A stretch of DNA of 38,369 nt from Paragemmobacter kunshanensis (GTDB lineage: Bacteria > Pseudomonadota > Alphaproteobacteria > Rhodobacterales > Rhodobacteraceae): positions 1 to 38,369 of the forward strand of contig NZ_JAALFE010000027.1 of NCBI RefSeq assembly GCF_011059185.1, in the 5' to 3' direction. Numbering within the stretch: position 1 is the first letter of the stretch; every line of letters begins with the position of its first letter. The notes below the pieces were generated by a model. The model did no database searches. It was not told the DNA's origin and was given only the letters and a program-made list of their open reading frames with translations. Shown in pieces: positions 121-7,941 of this stretch. A program made the translations under genes and the position numbers.

Positions 121-1098
121 TCATCCCGACTCCATCCACGGCTCCCACAAAAGCGCCCTGCCCCGGCCTGCGCGCTTTGCCGCGTAAAGCGCGGCATCGG
201 CATGGGCGAAAAGCTCGGAAATGGCGGCTTCCGGGGCCTGCCGGGCCAGAACCAGCCCCGCGCTGCCGCCGATCCGGCAGATCTCTGCGCCAAAGGCGAT
301 GGGCTCGGACAGCCGCTCGATGATCCGGGCAATCCGGCGCAGCGCAGGTTCCGGCGCCTTCATGCCCGGCAGCAGCAGCACGAATTCATCCCCCCCGATC
401 CGCGCCGCCGTATCCCCGGCACGGCATTCCTCGATCAGGATGCGCGCGACCTGCACCAGAACATGATCCCCCGCCGCGTGGCCAAGACCATCATTCACCT
501 GCTTGAACCGGTCCAGATCCAGATGCACCAGCGCAAAATCGCCCGTGCCCAGCGCCTCGATCGCCAGATCCAGCCCCCGGCGGTTGCGCAGGCCGGTCAG
601 GGCATCGGTCAGGGCCTGTTCTTCGGCCATCACCTTGTCGCCCTGCAGCCGGGCGTTCATCGCCCGCAACTCCTCCAGCACGGCAGTCTTGGCCTCATAG
701 AGGTAAAGCAGTTCCACCGTCAGATCCGTGGGCGCGAAATCGGCCTCTGTCAGGGCAAAGCGGCTGACGGCCTCGACCACGCCGATGCCGAAGGACAGGT
801 TGATCAGCGCCCCCTCCCCCATCGGCACGGCAAGGCCGCGAAAGGCCAGGTCCGCCCGCAGGCGCGATTGCAGATGCACCCGCCCCCCGCCCGCCAGCAG
901 ATCCGGGACCGATGTCACCGCCGCGCCATGGCGCAGGGTGAACAGGTCGCCCGCCTGCGCGCCCTCTTCGCCCGCTTCGGGGATCAGTCGCGCCAGCGTG
1001 CTGCCGGCCGAGATCACCCCCCCCGCCGCATCCAGCGCCAGATGCATGGGCATCAGCCGGTTCAGCGCCGCGCAGTCCAGTTCAAGGCGCCGGGTCAT
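121..1098 (-). CDS. HNOBA-GGDEF diguanylate cyclase
   Basis: This 325-residue protein is predicted to make cyclic di-GMP from two GTP. Residues 1-130 resemble the H-NOX-associated (HNOBA, PAS-like) domain that follows H-NOX in soluble guanylate cyclases. A helical linker (about 130-160) leads into a GGDEF domain with an intact GGDEF motif at 235-239. The RxxD product-inhibition site (RAGD, 226-229) lies exactly five residues before it, so both activity and feedback inhibition look preserved. There is no transmembrane segment, so it should be cytoplasmic. The start codon overlaps the stop of the upstream H-NOX-like gene by 4 bp (ATGA), which implies translational coupling and a two-protein signalling complex. 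Domain assignment is family knowledge; control by the neighbour is inference. Confidence 0.9.
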   Translation of the reverse strand: MTRRLELDCAALNRLMPMHLALDAAGGVISAGSTLARLIPEAGEEGAQAGDLFTLRHGAAVTSVPDLLAGGGRVHLQSRLRADLAFRGLAVPMGEGALINLSFGIGVVEAVSRFALTEADFAPTDLTVELLYLYEAKTAVLEELRAMNARLQGDKVMAEEQALTDALTGLRNRRGLDLAIEALGTGDFALVHLDLDRFKQVNDGLGHAAGDHVLVQVARILIEECRAGDTAARIGGDEFVLLLPGMKAPEPALRRIARIIERLSEPIAFGAEICRIGGSAGLVLARQAPEAAISELFAHADAALYAAKRAGRGRALLWEPWMESG

Positions 1099-1682
1099 TC
1101 CCGCGCCCCCAGCGTGAAGCTGCGCCCTTCGGCATGGGCCGGGTCCAGCAGCCGGATCGTCACCTCTGCCGCGCCGGCACTGCCCTCCGGTCCCGCCTCC
1201 AGCAGGGCGAGCGCCCCATAATCATCCGCCATCGCCCGCAACAGCCCCCGCGCCACCGCCCCGGCCCCGGGAAAACCGTCGCCGATCCGCAAGACGAAAC
1301 GCTGGTCGCCCAGCACCGTGACACGCATCGCAGGCAGAACCAGATCCGGCAGGGCAAGCCGCGCCCGTGCGGGCAGGTCTTCCAGCGATTGCAGGAAATC
1401 GGGGAAATCCGTGCCCCCGAAACGCAGCAGCCGCCGCACCGCCGCCCGCGACGGATGCGAGACCAGATAGGTTCCCAGATCCTCCAGCAGGCAATCGCGA
1501 TCCCGGTTCAGCCGGTCCGCGGCGACCTGCAGCAGACGTTCGGTCACCTCGGGCGGATAGGTCAGCATGGGTTCGAACCCACGCGCGGGCACGCCGGATG
1601 CCCGCGCGGCATCCTGCCAGGCCGCAGCCCCCCAGCCATCGCGCAGAAAGCACTGTATCGCCCTGTTGATCAGCCCGTTCAT
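1095..1682 (-). CDS. H-NOX (HNOB)-like sensor lacking heme ligands
   Basis: The 195-residue protein matches the H-NOX fold along its length. It opens MNGLINRAIQ like the beta subunit of soluble guanylate cyclase, and the block around 83-120 (RRLLRFGG, DFLQSLEDL, PDLVLPAMRV) is family-typical. By alignment from memory, the proximal heme histidine falls at residue 104, which is Pro here. The YxSxR heme-propionate motif region (about 131-140) reads FVLRIGDGF, so Tyr, Ser and Arg all appear missing. The fold therefore seems kept while heme binding is probably lost. It is coupled by a 4-bp overlap to an HNOBA-GGDEF cyclase, the usual H-NOX partner in bacteria. The gene may be cotranscribed with the DUF4153 gene 66 bp upstream. 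Fold is confident; the ligand, if any, is unknown. Confidence 0.85.
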   Translation of the reverse strand: MNGLINRAIQCFLRDGWGAAAWQDAARASGVPARGFEPMLTYPPEVTERLLQVAADRLNRDRDCLLEDLGTYLVSHPSRAAVRRLLRFGGTDFPDFLQSLEDLPARARLALPDLVLPAMRVTVLGDQRFVLRIGDGFPGAGAVARGLLRAMADDYGALALLEAGPEGSAGAAEVTIRLLDPAHAEGRSFTLGARE

Positions 1683-1748: not shown

Positions 1749-3524
1749 TTACGGCAGCAGCAGAATGCCCCCGGCCATGTCCAGCATGTTCACGGGCGCA
1801 GGCTGCAGGCCGGGCACGCCTTCCTGCAGGGAAGCGATCAGCGCGGCACCCGCCTCGCGATCTGCCAGCATGCCCGTCATCGCCGCGACAGACCGGCGCT
1901 GCACCGCGCCGCCCTGAAGTGCCAGCCCTTCATAGCGCATGAACCCCTCGGGGCCGCGCAGCAGGACCAGCGCCTCCTCGCCCGGCAGATCGGGCAGGAA
2001 ATCGGCCAGCAGCATCACGCAGCCGGGCCGCTCTGCCTGCCCCGGCAGGGGCGTCCGGCAGGCATCGACCCAGGCCTGCAACTCCTGCGCCCCGATCCCC
2101 GCCAGCAGCCGGTCACGGCCCGCCGTCGCCCCGGCAGGCTGCACCGGCAGGATGGCCCGCAACTGCGCCAGCATCGCCTCGGCCTCCTGCGCGGCGGTCT
2201 GCGGGTCGGCACTGCCCGCGCGCTCGCCCTGGCGTGCCTCCAGCCGCGCGGCCAGGTCCGCCTGCCCCGCATCCTGCGCCAGCACCTCCAGCCGCGCCAG
2301 CGCCGCGCGCCCCGGCAGGCCCCAGCGCTCCAGCGCCGCCAGGTCCAGATCCGCCGCCGCAACCTCCCCCGCCTCGAACCGCAGAACCTGCGACCGCGCC
2401 GAAATCGCCTCGGCGTTCAGAAGCGGGCTCAGCCACAGCGCGGCCGCCGCCATCGCCGCCCCCGCCATCACCATGTTCGCGCGCCGCAGCCCGCCCCGCC
2501 AGGCGGCAGCGCCCCGCAGCCCGCCCTGCAGCAGCGCCAGAAGATACAGCGCCGCATGGCCAGCCGCCAGCAGCACCAACCCCGCCACGAAAACCCGCCC
2601 CGGCGTCCAGCCATGCTGCGCCACCCGCAGCCAGACCGACCATGCCGCCAGCGCCACGGGCAAGGGCAGGATCGCCGCCAGCCCCTGCCCCCCCAGCACC
2701 AGCCAACGCCCCATCCCGGAGGCCTCCTCCTCATCCGTGCCGACGGTCAGCGTTGCCAGCAAGACGGCCGCCGCCGAAAGGCCCAGCAGGATCACCGCCG
2801 CGGACAGGCCCGCCGGCAGGCCCGAAAGGCCCTGCACCGGCAGCGCAAGGAAGAAGGCCAGCATCACCGCCAGAAGCGGCAGCACCAGCCAGCGCAGCGC
2901 CCGCAGCACAGGCTCTGGCGACAGCAGGTCCTCATGCTCCACCGCCAGCGCAACGCCCAGGCCCAGCGCGGCCCCCGTCACCATCCCGGGCAAGGGCCCG
3001 CCCTGCGCCAGCATCTGCTTCATCACCCCCAGCCCGACCAGCCCCATCAGGGCATCCGCGATCCAGATCACCCCCCAGACCAGCCCGGCCAGGATCCAGG
3101 CAAGGCACCCCCGCATCACCAGAAGCCAGCCTTCCCCGAAGACCGCGCCATAGTCCCGCCAGCCCGGCCCCGCCGCAGCGATCACAAAGGGCAGGGGCAG
3201 CACCGCCAGAACGAAGGCCGCGACAAAGGCAAGATCAGAGAAATGGAAGGCCGCCACCGTCTCATGCCGCATCGAGGCCATGAGCAGCATCAGCGCAACC
3301 CCCGCCGCCAGCGGCAAGGCCGCCGCGATGGCGCGCACGGTCCGCAGCGGCCCCGTCAAGGCCAGCAACAGGCCGAAGAACACCACGACAAGACTGCCCA
3401 GAAGGAACTGCATCCGCTCCGTCAGGGCCGCCTGCAGGGCAGGCAGGTCCACCAGCCACAGCGCCAGCCCCGCCAGGGCCCCGATCACAACCGGAACGGT
3501 CCGCCCCTGTTTCGGGTTCTCCAT
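1749..3524 (-). CDS. DUF4153 polytopic membrane protein
   Basis: A 591-residue inner-membrane protein resembling DUF4153 family members. The first two-thirds contain about a dozen hydrophobic segments. The last third (about residues 385-591) is a mostly soluble Ala/Leu-rich region with helical repeats. The function of the family is not established. I chose the ATG at 3524 because a GGGGGG purine tract lies just upstream and the first membrane helix follows shortly after. A longer reading to 3701 would overlap the 3' end of the methyltransferase gene and adds only Arg/Pro-rich sequence. The gene lies 66 bp upstream of the H-NOX-like gene on the same strand, so readthrough into the c-di-GMP pair is possible but not shown. 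Confidence 0.75.
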   Translation of the reverse strand: MENPKQGRTVPVVIGALAGLALWLVDLPALQAALTERMQFLLGSLVVVFFGLLLALTGPLRTVRAIAAALPLAAGVALMLLMASMRHETVAAFHFSDLAFVAAFVLAVLPLPFVIAAAGPGWRDYGAVFGEGWLLVMRGCLAWILAGLVWGVIWIADALMGLVGLGVMKQMLAQGGPLPGMVTGAALGLGVALAVEHEDLLSPEPVLRALRWLVLPLLAVMLAFFLALPVQGLSGLPAGLSAAVILLGLSAAAVLLATLTVGTDEEEASGMGRWLVLGGQGLAAILPLPVALAAWSVWLRVAQHGWTPGRVFVAGLVLLAAGHAALYLLALLQGGLRGAAAWRGGLRRANMVMAGAAMAAAALWLSPLLNAEAISARSQVLRFEAGEVAAADLDLAALERWGLPGRAALARLEVLAQDAGQADLAARLEARQGERAGSADPQTAAQEAEAMLAQLRAILPVQPAGATAGRDRLLAGIGAQELQAWVDACRTPLPGQAERPGCVMLLADFLPDLPGEEALVLLRGPEGFMRYEGLALQGGAVQRRSVAAMTGMLADREAGAALIASLQEGVPGLQPAPVNMLDMAGGILLLP

Positions 3525-3633
3525 CCGCTGCCCCCCATCTGGCCCGGCTGACGCGGGCCTTGCATCCCGCAAGGCTAGCCCGCAGGGATCGCCCCGGAAA
3601 GCGCAAACTCTGCCGGCCGGGGCGCGGCCTGCC

Positions 3634-5187
3634 TCAGAAATCGGTCGGCGCGCCGCCTTCCTGCTTGCGCCGGGCGACAAAGCGGCGCAGCTCCTCGGCA
3701 TGGTCGCCGTTCATCTCGGGCGCCTCGAATTCCTCAAGGATCTGGCGATAGATCCGATGCGCCCGCTCGGGCGTCCAGACCGATCCGCCCTGCTGCCAGG
3801 CCTCGTAATTGCGCCAGTCGCTGACGAAGGGCGCATAGAAGGCGGTCGTATAGCGGTCCTGGGTATGCTGGCAGCCGAAATAATGCCCGCCCGCCCCCAC
3901 TTCGCGGATCGCGTCAAAGGCCAGATCCTCGTCCGTGGTGGCAAAGGTCGCCTCTTCGAAATAGCGCTGGATCATCTGCAGCACTTCGCAATCCATCACG
4001 AACTTCTCGGGGCTCGCGATCAGCCCGCCCTCCAGCCAGCCCGCCGCGTGATAGACCATGTTGGTCCGCGACTGCACCGCCGCCCACAGGCTGTTCGAGG
4101 TTTCCCACATCGCCTGCCCGTCCGGCACATTCGCGGCGCAAACCCCCGAAGACCGCAGGGGCAGCTTGTAGAAGCGCACCAGTTGCCCCGTCATCTGCGT
4201 GGCGCGCATGTATTCCGGCGTGCCAAAGGCGGGCGCGCCCGACTTCATGTCGACATTTGATGTGAAAGTGCCAATCGCAACCGGGCAACCGGGGGCAATA
4301 TATTGCAAAAGGGCAATCGCCGCCAAAGCCTCGGCCAGCGACAGCGCCACCGCCCCCGCCATCGTGACCGGCGCCATCGCACCGGCCAGCGTGAAGGGCG
4401 TCACCACCACGGGCTGCCCCCGCCGGGCCAGCCGCATCGCCCCGTCCAGCATCGGGAAGTCATGCTTCAAGGGCGAGACAGAGTTGATGTTGGTATACAT
4501 CCGCGGCTTGGCGCGGAACTCCTCCTCGCTCAGCCCCCCCGCGATGCGCGTCATCTCCATGACGTCTTCCACCCGCTCCGCGCCCAGCGAATAGGCGTGA
4601 ACGACCTTGTCCGTCAGCGTCAGCTTTTCATACAGGCAGTCGAGGTGGCGCACCGAGGGGTGGATGTCGATCGGCTCCACCGGATAGCCGCCCGCGATAT
4701 GGATGCAGTTGAAATACTGCGTCAGCTTCATGAATTCCTTGAAGGTCTCGAAATCGCCAGACCGCTTGCCGCGCTCCATGTCCCAGGCATTCGGCGGGGA
4801 CGAGACATTGACAAAGACCATGTGCTTGCCGCCGATCACCAGTTCCCGCTCGGGATTGCGCGGGGTGATGGTGAATTCGGAAGGTGCCTTCGACAGCATC
4901 TCCATGACAAACTCTTCGTCCATGCGGACATTCGTGCCATCGACACGGCATCCCGCGCGGCGCAGATGCTCCACCGCCTCGGGGTTCAGGAATTCGATCC
5001 CGATCTCCTTCAGGATGCGCATCGCCGTCTTGTGGATCCGCAGCACACCCTCGGCATCCAGCGGCTCCACCGGCGCATCGGGATTGACGGGGATGCGCCA
5101 GGGCATCTGGTCGATCACCGCCGTCCCCGCGCGCAGCTTGTTTCCGGCACGCCCCCCGGCGCGGCGTTTGCGCGGCTCTTCGTTCAT
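3634..5187 (-). CDS. MttB-family corrinoid-dependent methyltransferase
   Basis: This 517-residue protein belongs to the trimethylamine methyltransferase (MttB, COG5598) superfamily, whose members move a methyl group from a quaternary or tertiary amine to a corrinoid protein. The reading frame is uninterrupted, with no in-frame amber codon, so it is a non-pyrrolysine member. Characterised relatives of that type act on compounds such as glycine betaine. The segments IPVNPDAP, GGYPVEPIDIHP, VTPFTLAGAMAPVT and VGAGGHYFGCQHT fit the TIM-barrel family. I set the start at 5187 because GGAGGG lies about 7 bp upstream; the longer frame to 5313 adds unrelated Cys/Arg-rich sequence. No corrinoid protein or corrinoid:folate methyltransferase gene is nearby, so the substrate and partners are unknown. 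Confidence 0.87.
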   Translation of the reverse strand: MNEEPRKRRAGGRAGNKLRAGTAVIDQMPWRIPVNPDAPVEPLDAEGVLRIHKTAMRILKEIGIEFLNPEAVEHLRRAGCRVDGTNVRMDEEFVMEMLSKAPSEFTITPRNPERELVIGGKHMVFVNVSSPPNAWDMERGKRSGDFETFKEFMKLTQYFNCIHIAGGYPVEPIDIHPSVRHLDCLYEKLTLTDKVVHAYSLGAERVEDVMEMTRIAGGLSEEEFRAKPRMYTNINSVSPLKHDFPMLDGAMRLARRGQPVVVTPFTLAGAMAPVTMAGAVALSLAEALAAIALLQYIAPGCPVAIGTFTSNVDMKSGAPAFGTPEYMRATQMTGQLVRFYKLPLRSSGVCAANVPDGQAMWETSNSLWAAVQSRTNMVYHAAGWLEGGLIASPEKFVMDCEVLQMIQRYFEEATFATTDEDLAFDAIREVGAGGHYFGCQHTQDRYTTAFYAPFVSDWRNYEAWQQGGSVWTPERAHRIYRQILEEFEAPEMNGDHAEELRRFVARRKQEGGAPTDF

Positions 5188-5350
5188 GGCACCCTCCGTC
5201 GGGCAGACCAGCCCGCTTTCGGCCACCATGGCGAAGCCGCAGCGCAAAGGACACTCCAGCCACGACGCGGATATGTCGTTTTTCGCTGCAGCCCCGCCCG
5301 ATGCCCGGCCCATGGCGGCACCACGGAACGCAAAGGCGCGACATCCGCCC

Positions 5351-5418: not shown

Positions 5419-6114
5419 CTATCCCGCCAGGGCGTCGATCCAGCCGCCCAGATGGCCGATATCGGGCAGGACGGCATCGGCATGGGGGGCCAGTTCCTCG
5501 GCCCCCGCGATGCCGGTCAGCACCGCCACCGTCCGCATGCCCGCCGCGCGCCCGGCTTCCAGGTCATGGCGGCTGTCGCCCACCATCACCACCCGCGCCG
5601 GATCCAGCCCCAGTTGCCGCGCAAAGGCCGCGCACATGCCCGGCCCCGGCTTCGGCCCGTGGCCGCTGTCATATCCTGCCACATAGTCGAACAGGTCCGT
5701 CACCCCATGCGCCGCCAGATGGGCATGGGCCGTCACTTCCACATCATTGGTGGCAAGCCCGATCTTCAACCCGCGCCCGCGCAGCCCGCCCAGCACGGCG
5801 GGCAGGTCCACCGCGGGCAGCATCGGCGCGCCTTCGGCCATGCGGTTCATCCGGTCTTCCAGATCGCGCGCATCCGCCCCCGGCACCAGCGCAGCCAGCG
5901 CTGCCGAAATCTCGCCCGAAGTGCCCGCGATCACCACGCTGTCAGGCGCAAAGCGCCGCGCCACCGGATCAAAGCCGATCGCCGCGCCCAGAACGCGCGC
6001 ATCCATCCCGCTTTCCCGGGCCAGCAGATCCAGCAGATCGGCCGCCCAGGCCCCCCAACTGGCCCGGAAATCGAACAGCGTCCCGTCCTTGTCGAAGATC
6101 ACCCCGTCAATCAT
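5419..6114 (-). CDS. HAD hydrolase, phosphoglycolate phosphatase-like
   Basis: A 231-residue haloacid-dehalogenase-superfamily phosphatase. Motif I is DKDGT (Asp8 nucleophile, Asp10 acid/base). A helical cap spans roughly 15-85. Motif II is the ATND stretch, motif III is the Lys of KPGPGM, and motif IV is GDSRHD. The architecture resembles phosphoglycolate phosphatases (Gph/PGP), but these motifs alone do not fix the substrate. I chose the ATG at 6114 because motif I then lies at the usual N-terminal position and GGGAG precedes it; the extension to 6180 would abut the DUF3572 gene. That gene sits 66 bp upstream on the same strand, so the two are likely cotranscribed. Confidence 0.88.
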   Translation of the reverse strand: MIDGVIFDKDGTLFDFRASWGAWAADLLDLLARESGMDARVLGAAIGFDPVARRFAPDSVVIAGTSGEISAALAALVPGADARDLEDRMNRMAEGAPMLPAVDLPAVLGGLRGRGLKIGLATNDVEVTAHAHLAAHGVTDLFDYVAGYDSGHGPKPGPGMCAAFARQLGLDPARVVMVGDSRHDLEAGRAAGMRTVAVLTGIAGAEELAPHADAVLPDIGHLGGWIDALAG

Positions 6115-6180
6115 CCCGCGCGCTCCCGCCTGCCTGCCCTGCTCGCCGCCATCTTTGGCCCCTGCCCCGCGCATTTGCAA

Positions 6181-6562: not shown

Positions 6563-6606
6563 CCAAACTCTCGCACGGATGCAGGGAAAGGTTGCCAGGT
6601 TTCGCG

Positions 6607-7941
6607 ATGGCAGGCAGGATTCTGATCGTGGACGATGTCGCGACGAACCGCATCGTGATGAAGGTGCGTCTTGCGACCAGTAGGCACGCCACCCTTCTCG
6701 CCGCCGACGGGATCGAGGCGCTGCGCCTCACCCGCGAATGCCACCCCGATCTCGTGCTGCTCGATCTCGACCTGCCCGCGATGGACGGCCTCTCGGTGCT
6801 GCGGGCCCTGCGCGCCGATCCGGCCAGCCGCGACATTCCCGTGATCGTCCATACCGCCACCCCGCTGGCCGAGGCCCGCCTCGCCGCGCTGCGGGCCGGG
6901 GCGGATGATGTCTTTGCCAAACCCGCGGATGAACGCCTGCTTCTGGCCCGCATCCGCAACCTTCTGCGCCGCCGCGACCCGGCCGAGACGATGCAATCCC
7001 CGCTCTTTGCGTTGCAGGAACAGGCCGATCCCTTCGATTGGCCAGGCCTTGTGGCGATGACGGGCTTCGCGGCCGAAGGCGGGCACCGCCTCGCCCGGTT
7101 GCTGGCCCCCCTCCTGCCGCATCGCCTGCACCCTGTCGCGGCGGCGGGCCTGCCCGCCGATCCCCCTGACGCCTGGCTGATCGACGCGACCGCAGGCCCC
7201 GTCAACCCCGCCTATGCCCTGCTGTCGGAACTGCGCTCGGCCCCCGACAGCCGCCATACCGGCATCGCGGTCCTTACCGATGGCCCCGACAGCGCCGCCA
7301 TGGCCTATGATCTCGGCGCGGACGAGGCGATCTGCCCGCGCAGCCAGCCCGAGGAAATGGCCCTGCGCCTGAACGCCATGATCGCCCGCAGCCGCGCCGC
7401 CGCCCGCCATCGCGCGCAACTGCGCGACAATGTCCGCCTTGCGATGATCGACCCGCTCACCGGGCTGTTCAATCGCCGCTACGCCCTGCGCCGGATGGGG
7501 GAAATGTCGCTCGGTTCCGTCGGCGGCGGCATCGGCACCGCGACGATGATCGTGGATATCGACCGTTTCAAGCAGATCAACGATCGCTTCGGCCATGCCG
7601 CGGGCGATGCCGTCCTGGTCGAGGTGGCGCGCCGCCTGCAGGATCACCTGACCGAAGACGATCTCATCGCCCGGATCGGCGGGGAAGAGTTCCTGATCGC
7701 CCTGCCCGACCGCGCCCTGACGCAGGCGCGCGATCTGGCCGACCGGCTGCGCGCCGCCATCCATGACCGGCCGATCGCCCTTGCCGCAGGCGAAGCCGTG
7801 ACGCTGACCATTTCCATCGGCCTCTGCCTCGCACCGCCCGGCACCCTGCCCGATGATGCCATCGACCGGGCCGACCGCGCCCTCATGTCGGCCAAGCTGC
7901 AGGGACGCAACCGCGTCATCGTCGGCCGCTCGGCGGCCTGA
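6607..7941 (+). CDS. pleD: PleD-like response regulator diguanylate cyclase
   Basis: This 444-residue protein has PleD architecture. An N-terminal receiver domain has acidic residues in VDD and phospho-acceptor Asp53 in LLDLDLP. A second, degenerate receiver-like domain spans about 140-265, and a GGDEF domain with GGEEF at 358-362 follows. It should make cyclic di-GMP when phosphorylated and dimerised. The position that normally carries the RxxD inhibition site, five residues before GGEEF, reads TEDD (349-352), so the Arg is missing. I chose the ATG at 6607, which gives the family-typical MAGRILIVDD opening; a TTG at 6592 is in frame but less likely. No cognate kinase is encoded nearby. Confidence 0.9.
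   Translation: MAGRILIVDDVATNRIVMKVRLATSRHATLLAADGIEALRLTRECHPDLVLLDLDLPAMDGLSVLRALRADPASRDIPVIVHTATPLAEARLAALRAGADDVFAKPADERLLLARIRNLLRRRDPAETMQSPLFALQEQADPFDWPGLVAMTGFAAEGGHRLARLLAPLLPHRLHPVAAAGLPADPPDAWLIDATAGPVNPAYALLSELRSAPDSRHTGIAVLTDGPDSAAMAYDLGADEAICPRSQPEEMALRLNAMIARSRAAARHRAQLRDNVRLAMIDPLTGLFNRRYALRRMGEMSLGSVGGGIGTATMIVDIDRFKQINDRFGHAAGDAVLVEVARRLQDHLTEDDLIARIGGEEFLIALPDRALTQARDLADRLRAAIHDRPIALAAGEAVTLTISIGLCLAPPGTLPDDAIDRADRALMSAKLQGRNRVIVGRSAA

Follow-up and report, generated by a model that had tools for sequence, protein, structure and literature searches.

What does an H-NOX-like protein do when the residues that would hold its heme have been replaced, and is its gene still of use to the cell? 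The question is raised by two overlapping genes of Paragemmobacter kunshanensis, one encoding an H-NOX-like protein and the other a predicted diguanylate cyclase. The window, by which we mean the whole stretch of DNA analysed, comprises 38,369 nt of contig NZ_JAALFE010000027.1, and we refer to its H-NOX-like protein as the window protein.

Fold, heme-ligand positions and cyclase partner

The gene for the window protein is a complete open reading frame on the reverse strand (1095-1682), encoding 195 residues. The protein scores 66.6 bits against the HNOB family (PF07700; cut-off 25.5, E 3.2e-18), and no other Pfam family was found at E <= 1. Its closest solved relative by phmmer is the H-NOX protein Alr2278 from Nostoc (E 2.7e-12). 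The proximal region aligns to Alr2278 without gaps and places Pro104 (codon 1371-1373, reverse strand), within a predicted helix spanning residues 93-110, opposite His105, which we take to be the proximal heme ligand. The YxSxR motif of Alr2278, to which we presume a role in holding heme, aligns to residues 133-137 (1272-1286, reverse strand), where Ile133, Asp135 and Phe137 stand opposite the Tyr, Ser and Arg and the window protein reads IGDGF, or IxDxF. Both features of a heme sensor are therefore absent, the proximal His and the YxSxR motif. Misalignment of the proximal site was ruled out: there is no gap up to Pro117, 13 residues further on and kept as in Alr2278 (Pro117/118), and a profile of 24 orthologues, which finds Alr2278 at E 6.4e-26, agrees with the single sequence on the register. 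The same profile also matches the beta subunit of soluble guanylate cyclase (1.3e-16).

An AlphaFold2 model of the window protein, calculated with 24 sequences as input, has a mean pLDDT of 85.6 and a pTM of 0.81, and its top Foldseek match is the Nostoc H-NOX structure 3tf8_A (E 2.0e-12, TM 0.80/0.84). Profile match and predicted fold both assign the protein to the H-NOX/HNOB family. An earlier, sequence-only reading had described a complete H-NOX-like protein with Pro104 at the proximal position and FVLRIGDGF in place of the YxSxR region. The first description is upheld by the PF07700 match, the phmmer alignment and the profile register, and the second is correct for residues 129-137; the comparison of a predicted structure with a known H-NOX, which that reading had proposed, likewise recovers the fold; in the model Pro104 lies in the 93-110 helix. 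We regard the loss of the ligands as a real feature and not a chance one because the family match is strong (E 3e-18) and the same state is found in most orthologues.

The partner gene lies on the same strand (121-1098) and its start overlaps the stop of hnox by four bases (1095-1098). It encodes 325 residues, comprising an HNOBA-like N-terminus, a long helix and a GGDEF domain (PF00990, E 8.5e-36). The GGDEF active-site motif (residues 235-239; 382-396, reverse strand) and an RxxD I-site, RAGD (residues 226-229; 412-423, reverse strand), are intact, as the sequence-only reading had stated along with the four-base overlap, and by these motifs the partner qualifies as a diguanylate cyclase. That reading had not mentioned the HNOBA-like region, at about residues 6-103 (790-1083, reverse strand), the outer limit of which is taken from the model. 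Here PF07701 gives 17.9 bits, below its cut-off of 23.4, over residues 6-56 only; an HNOBA match at E <= 0.1 is present in 18 of the 21 cyclases in alignment A2, the best at 3.5e-8. The AlphaFold2 model of the cyclase (mean pLDDT 86.9, pTM 0.56) shows three parts: an N-terminal domain of mixed alpha/beta structure, a single long helix over residues 123-162 (613-732, reverse strand) and the GGDEF domain. The three entries that Foldseek ranks highest for it belong to a PAS-GGDEF-EAL protein, with TM 0.46-0.48 over the query. Judged by sequence, the pair has the HNOB, HNOBA and cyclase modules of soluble guanylate cyclase, split over two genes. At loci L003, L006 and L240-L244 an H-NOX protein with His and YxSxR has as its neighbour a protein whose match to the cyclase profile falls mainly in the HNOBA-like, N-terminal half, and the HNOBA module seems to be paired with other outputs there.

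Upstream of the pair, on the same strand, are genes for a DUF4153 protein (1749-3701; PF13687, 1.8e-7), an MttB-family methyltransferase (3634-5313; PF06253, 2.5e-223) and a HAD hydrolase (5419-6180; PF00702, 9.1e-23), with similar sequences at 30, 42 and 35, respectively, of 80 named orthologous loci when flanks of up to 3 kb were considered. The MttB-family frame has 559 codons for amino acids and no internal stop, and scores 270 bits against the cut-off of 525 for the pyrrolysine-type trimethylamine methyltransferase model; its product is probably a non-pyrrolysine MttB relative. A second cyclase gene is close by on the forward strand (6592-7941), encoding a receiver domain and a GGDEF domain (PF00072, 4.4e-23; PF00990, 4.3e-41). 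In Paracoccus denitrificans a receiver-GGDEF protein, DgcB, is likewise reported besides the H-NOX-linked DgcA (PMC5588039).

Distribution and history of the His-less state

Is the missing His peculiar to the window genome? Frequencies in the other locus sets are biased by how the loci were fetched, and we therefore quote the main ones from a draw of 149 family genomes, roughly one per genus. PF07700 matches are present in 108 of these genomes and absent from 41. A larger search found matches in 296 of 394 family genomes, the loci being taken by best PF07700 score, and another locus set consists of the best 80 of 444 confirmed loci, those nearest the window. An orthologue profile run on 234 loci found an open reading frame in 232, of which 200 score at least 121 bits and 32 below 45 bits; the two loci without one, L031 and L213, were left out. 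L213 (genome G101) has a PF07700 match of 69 bits (E 8.8e-19) and yields no frame to the orthologue profile even at E 10, which by sequence makes it an H-NOX of another kind. Canonical H-NOX loci were excluded from the orthologue counts and L233 (genome G036) was included despite its seemingly broken frame; its orthologue lies in two open reading frames of differing frame, of 80 and 152 residues, through a frameshift or an assembly error.

Among the 105 orthologous loci of the draw, the proximal residue is Pro in 77 and His in 8, one of the latter being the outgroup-like L003. Another residue is present in 19 (N 4, A 3, Q 3, T 2, G 2, R 2, and K, D and E once each), and the one gap is L231, which is truncated at the proximal site. 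Over all 189 unique loci, a biased sample, Pro is found in 139 and His in 14. The low-scoring orthologue of genome G120 (L124 and L138, 195 bits) has Asn. The alignment of homologues that the sequence-only reading had called for thus finds Pro in most loci of the draw; a proximal His, whose conservation it had named as contrary evidence, occurs in 8 of the 105.

All 29 of the mostly canonical loci L002-L030, among which L002, L003 and L006 are intermediate in score, carry the proximal His together with the Tyr and Ser of YxSxR, and 28 carry the Arg. When 385 alphaproteobacterial genomes were searched class-wide with the alignment, 10 gave matches; the five outside the family all score 103 bits or less and all carry His and YxSxR. 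The orthologue group appears from these searches to be centred on the Rhodobacteraceae, and the outgroups observed are of the heme-binding type. The His-less state is real, widespread in the family and not peculiar to the window genome.

The history of this state was followed on a joint tree of H-NOX and cyclase (184 rows, without L003, L006, L081, L078 and L231), built by a quick method with the trait columns omitted. The state changes at least 8 times on this tree, and 10 times on an H-NOX-only tree that includes three canonical rows. If His is never regained, 18 losses are needed, or 12 after collapsing branches below 80. One supported clade (99) unites four His members with one Pro member, L098. 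Repeated change is thus indicated by a quick tree, on which the count depends, and its direction, a loss of His, is inferred from the outgroups.

Two possible correlates of His were considered. Residue 137, the Arg position of YxSxR, is R, H, K, Y or Q in 12 of 17 His rows compared with 35 of 174 others (Fisher 3.4e-5). Co-variation is not established, given that 6 of the 17 rows are outgroup or canonical and only one independent pair lies on supported branches. The second correlate is an NO-forming nitrite reductase, scored from either a nirK hit above its cut-off or a strong match to cytochrome d1, with the d1 classes set by us from bit scores. When the weaker d1 class is included, such an enzyme accompanies 6 of 7 His and 36 of 96 His-less draw loci (p 0.018, without L003), or 7 of 8 His loci with L003 (p 0.008). 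Under the strict d1 class the figures are 5 of 7 and 32 of 96 (p 0.095), or 6 of 8 His loci with L003 (p 0.049). Addition of six hand-picked genomes gave 7 of 10 and 37 of 99 (p 0.086); among these, the reductase is present in G290 and absent from G298 and G195, all with His, and present in G354 and absent from G372 and G188, all His-less. A tree-aware test had three supported pairs and no power. Both side tests lean the expected way, yet fail correction or enlargement, and a tie between His retention and NO-forming nitrite reductases is suggestive at most. No nirK or nirS-family match was found in the window genome, a result that counts for the reading preferred below.

It is possible, if doubtful, that within one orthologous operon a heme sensor of the NO type has repeatedly become a heme-independent regulatory subunit of a c-di-GMP synthase, with the ligand surviving mainly in cells that produce NO themselves. 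If true, the family would offer a natural set of stages in which a gas sensor can be followed as it turns into a plain subunit or a sensor of another ligand.

Conservation of the pair and a probable role of the H-NOX-like protein

A gene matching the cyclase profile adjoins 187 of the 189 unique loci, and the remaining two (L078, L231) lie on stretches that end too soon. The partners have GGDEF in 184 of 187 cases, the exceptions being L003 and L006, without the motif, and L081, which is cut; the RxxD I-site is present in 181. The two genes overlap by four bases (-4) in 84 of the 187 orthologous pairs. Invariant columns among 24 orthologues (alignment A1) include E67, D68, G70, R83-R87, G90 and A150-L158, and none of the columns that are invariant or nearly so in these 24 sequences is a Cys. 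Residue pairs specific to the class are kept regardless of the proximal residue: E67-D68 and D153-D154 each occur in all 11 in-group His members and in 136 of the 139 Pro members. R84 and R87 are found together in every one of these 11 His and 139 Pro members. The ratio dN/dS is 0.13-0.20 for the window gene compared with L032 and L033, 0.17-0.39 with L036 depending on the method, and 0.04 to 0.31 for four further pairs. It is below 0.4 in all seven pairs tested, and purifying selection on the H-NOX-like gene is evident from these comparisons.

We consider it rather probable that a group-5-type H-NOX is kept here, in a two-gene operon, as the regulatory partner of an HNOBA-GGDEF cyclase, and that it acts independently of heme and restrains c-di-GMP synthesis. 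Lacking the His and YxSxR residues, the window protein would not hold heme as a gas sensor does, and heme-independence is, from its sequence, the likeliest state. The sequence-only reading, which had inferred a repurposed, heme-independent or altered-ligand sensor controlling c-di-GMP, is upheld in part. The H-NOX would bind the HNOBA part of the cyclase through surfaces conserved with or without His, for which the conservation pattern suggests Glu-Asp 67-68, Arg84 and Arg87, and Asp-Asp 153-154. Restraint of c-di-GMP synthesis would then be either constitutive or dependent on some input; the H-NOX possibly has no sensory function and is simply a constitutive subunit. The role is probably inhibitory by analogy with P. 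denitrificans, because there the authors read the genetics that way: biofilm is partly deficient in an hnoX mutant and over-produced in a dgcAB mutant (PMC5588039).

Several observations count against this explanation. The same source models NO as acting through the P. denitrificans H-NOX despite the missing His (PMC5588039). A minority of orthologues have His, and part of the group may use heme. The HNOBA match of the window cyclase is below cut-off, and the 50 Foldseek matches listed for its model include no guanylate cyclase.

The pocket might instead have been re-used for a different small molecule, the window protein switching the cyclase as an altered-ligand sensor. The fold is predicted with confidence and the core is well kept in Pro-type members, with P117 in 138 and G70 in 139 of 139, mostly aliphatic residues at positions 5, 9, 74, 103, 131 and 148, and L, F, V or I at position 137 in 83 of 139; a hinge Gly and bulky hydrophobic residues are described by Lee-Lopez and Yukl as conserved across all H-NOX groups (PMC8738867). 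Such conservation may merely preserve the fold, however, and in the 47 columns inspected we saw no new polar position that sets Pro-type members apart. We judge this explanation unlikely.

Lower still we would place the idea that heme is still bound, either with no His ligand or by way of a different axial residue, and that the protein senses NO. A 2003 abstract by Iyer et al. reportedly mentions His-less HNOBs and proposes that they bind heme non-covalently. His76, in the SHP motif, occurs in 109 of 139 Pro members and 7 of 11 in-group His members, a somewhat higher share in the former. It does not appear to be a substitute gained upon loss of the proximal ligand, because most in-group His members already have it, and we find no support for it as a replacement. 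An NO input is assumed in the P. denitrificans work (PMC5588039), and the presumed Dinoroseobacter shibae orthologue is reported to sense NO through heme (PMC7232146, PMC8846402). However, that presumed orthologue has the His, whereas the window protein lacks YxSxR as well.

That the gene is a decaying relic is very improbable and we reject it: the ligand site is gone, 19 of 105 draw loci have neither Pro nor His and one draw orthologue lies in two frames, but the frame of the window protein is complete, many columns are invariant over 24 orthologues, motifs specific to the class are conserved family-wide, as is the partner gene, and dN/dS stays below 0.4 in the seven pairs, in line with the sequence-only reading that this is not a decayed gene.

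Relation to known H-NOX systems

The window protein shares its predicted fold with canonical H-NOX proteins, such as Nostoc Alr2278 and most of L002-L030, and differs from them in the His, Tyr, Ser and Arg that those proteins retain. With soluble guanylate cyclase the pair has in common the HNOB, HNOBA and cyclase parts; unlike that enzyme, it is encoded by two genes and its cyclase domain is GGDEF. In the alpha subunit of that enzyme the H-NOX domain carries no heme, which shows by precedent that a working enzyme can contain such a domain. Activity without heme has a further precedent in Vibrio cholerae H-NOX, which is reported to be active heme-free through a Cys-zinc redox site and belongs to groups that always keep the His (PMC7108781); unlike it, the window orthologues have no conserved Cys.

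The window locus is another member of a class already in print, of which the sequence-only reading was unaware and which we found by name in the open-licence literature only in Kumar and Spiro (2017) and Lee-Lopez and Yukl (2022). Kumar and Spiro note that the axial His is missing in P. denitrificans H-NOX and likewise in Rhodobacter sphaeroides, for which they cite Iyer et al. (2003), that the P. denitrificans H-NOX gene overlaps a GGDEF gene, and suggest that H-NOX inhibits DgcA under NO (PMC5588039). Lee-Lopez and Yukl describe a 'group 5' that includes the P. denitrificans sequence (Pden_3719), report His in fewer than 10%, Pro in most and no conserved Cys, and ask how these proteins sense anything (PMC8738867). 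The window protein has Pro, His is found in 8 of 105 loci of the draw, the 24 sequences of alignment A1 have no conserved Cys, and the window gene overlaps the cyclase gene as in P. denitrificans; no difference was found from the described features of group 5, which these authors drew as a similarity-network cluster (edges at E < 1e-47). A figure legend of the same survey lists GGDEF, MTTB and HAD among the neighbour families without assigning them to any of the five groups (PMC8738867); the window pair has MttB and HAD genes upstream.

In D. shibae, H-NOX is reported, at second hand, to bind NO via heme and then inhibit Dgc1 (PMC7232146, PMC8846402), and rcc02630 of Rhodobacter capsulatus is presented as its homologue (PMC7232146). 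We presume that L112 (genome G035) is D. shibae Hnox, Dshi_2815. It belongs to the same orthologous group as the window protein (227 bits by profile) and has the same gene order. Unlike the window protein, with its Pro, it keeps the proximal His (DDLHDRARLAV). Since this presumed D. shibae orthologue still has the ligand, its biochemistry should not be carried over to Pro-type members. This His, and the repeated changes of the His state on the quick tree, are what the present analysis adds. The group is large, and the published model of the P. denitrificans protein still treats it as an NO sensor although it lacks the heme ligand; with His and Pro orthologues in the same operon, the published question of what these proteins sense becomes directly testable.
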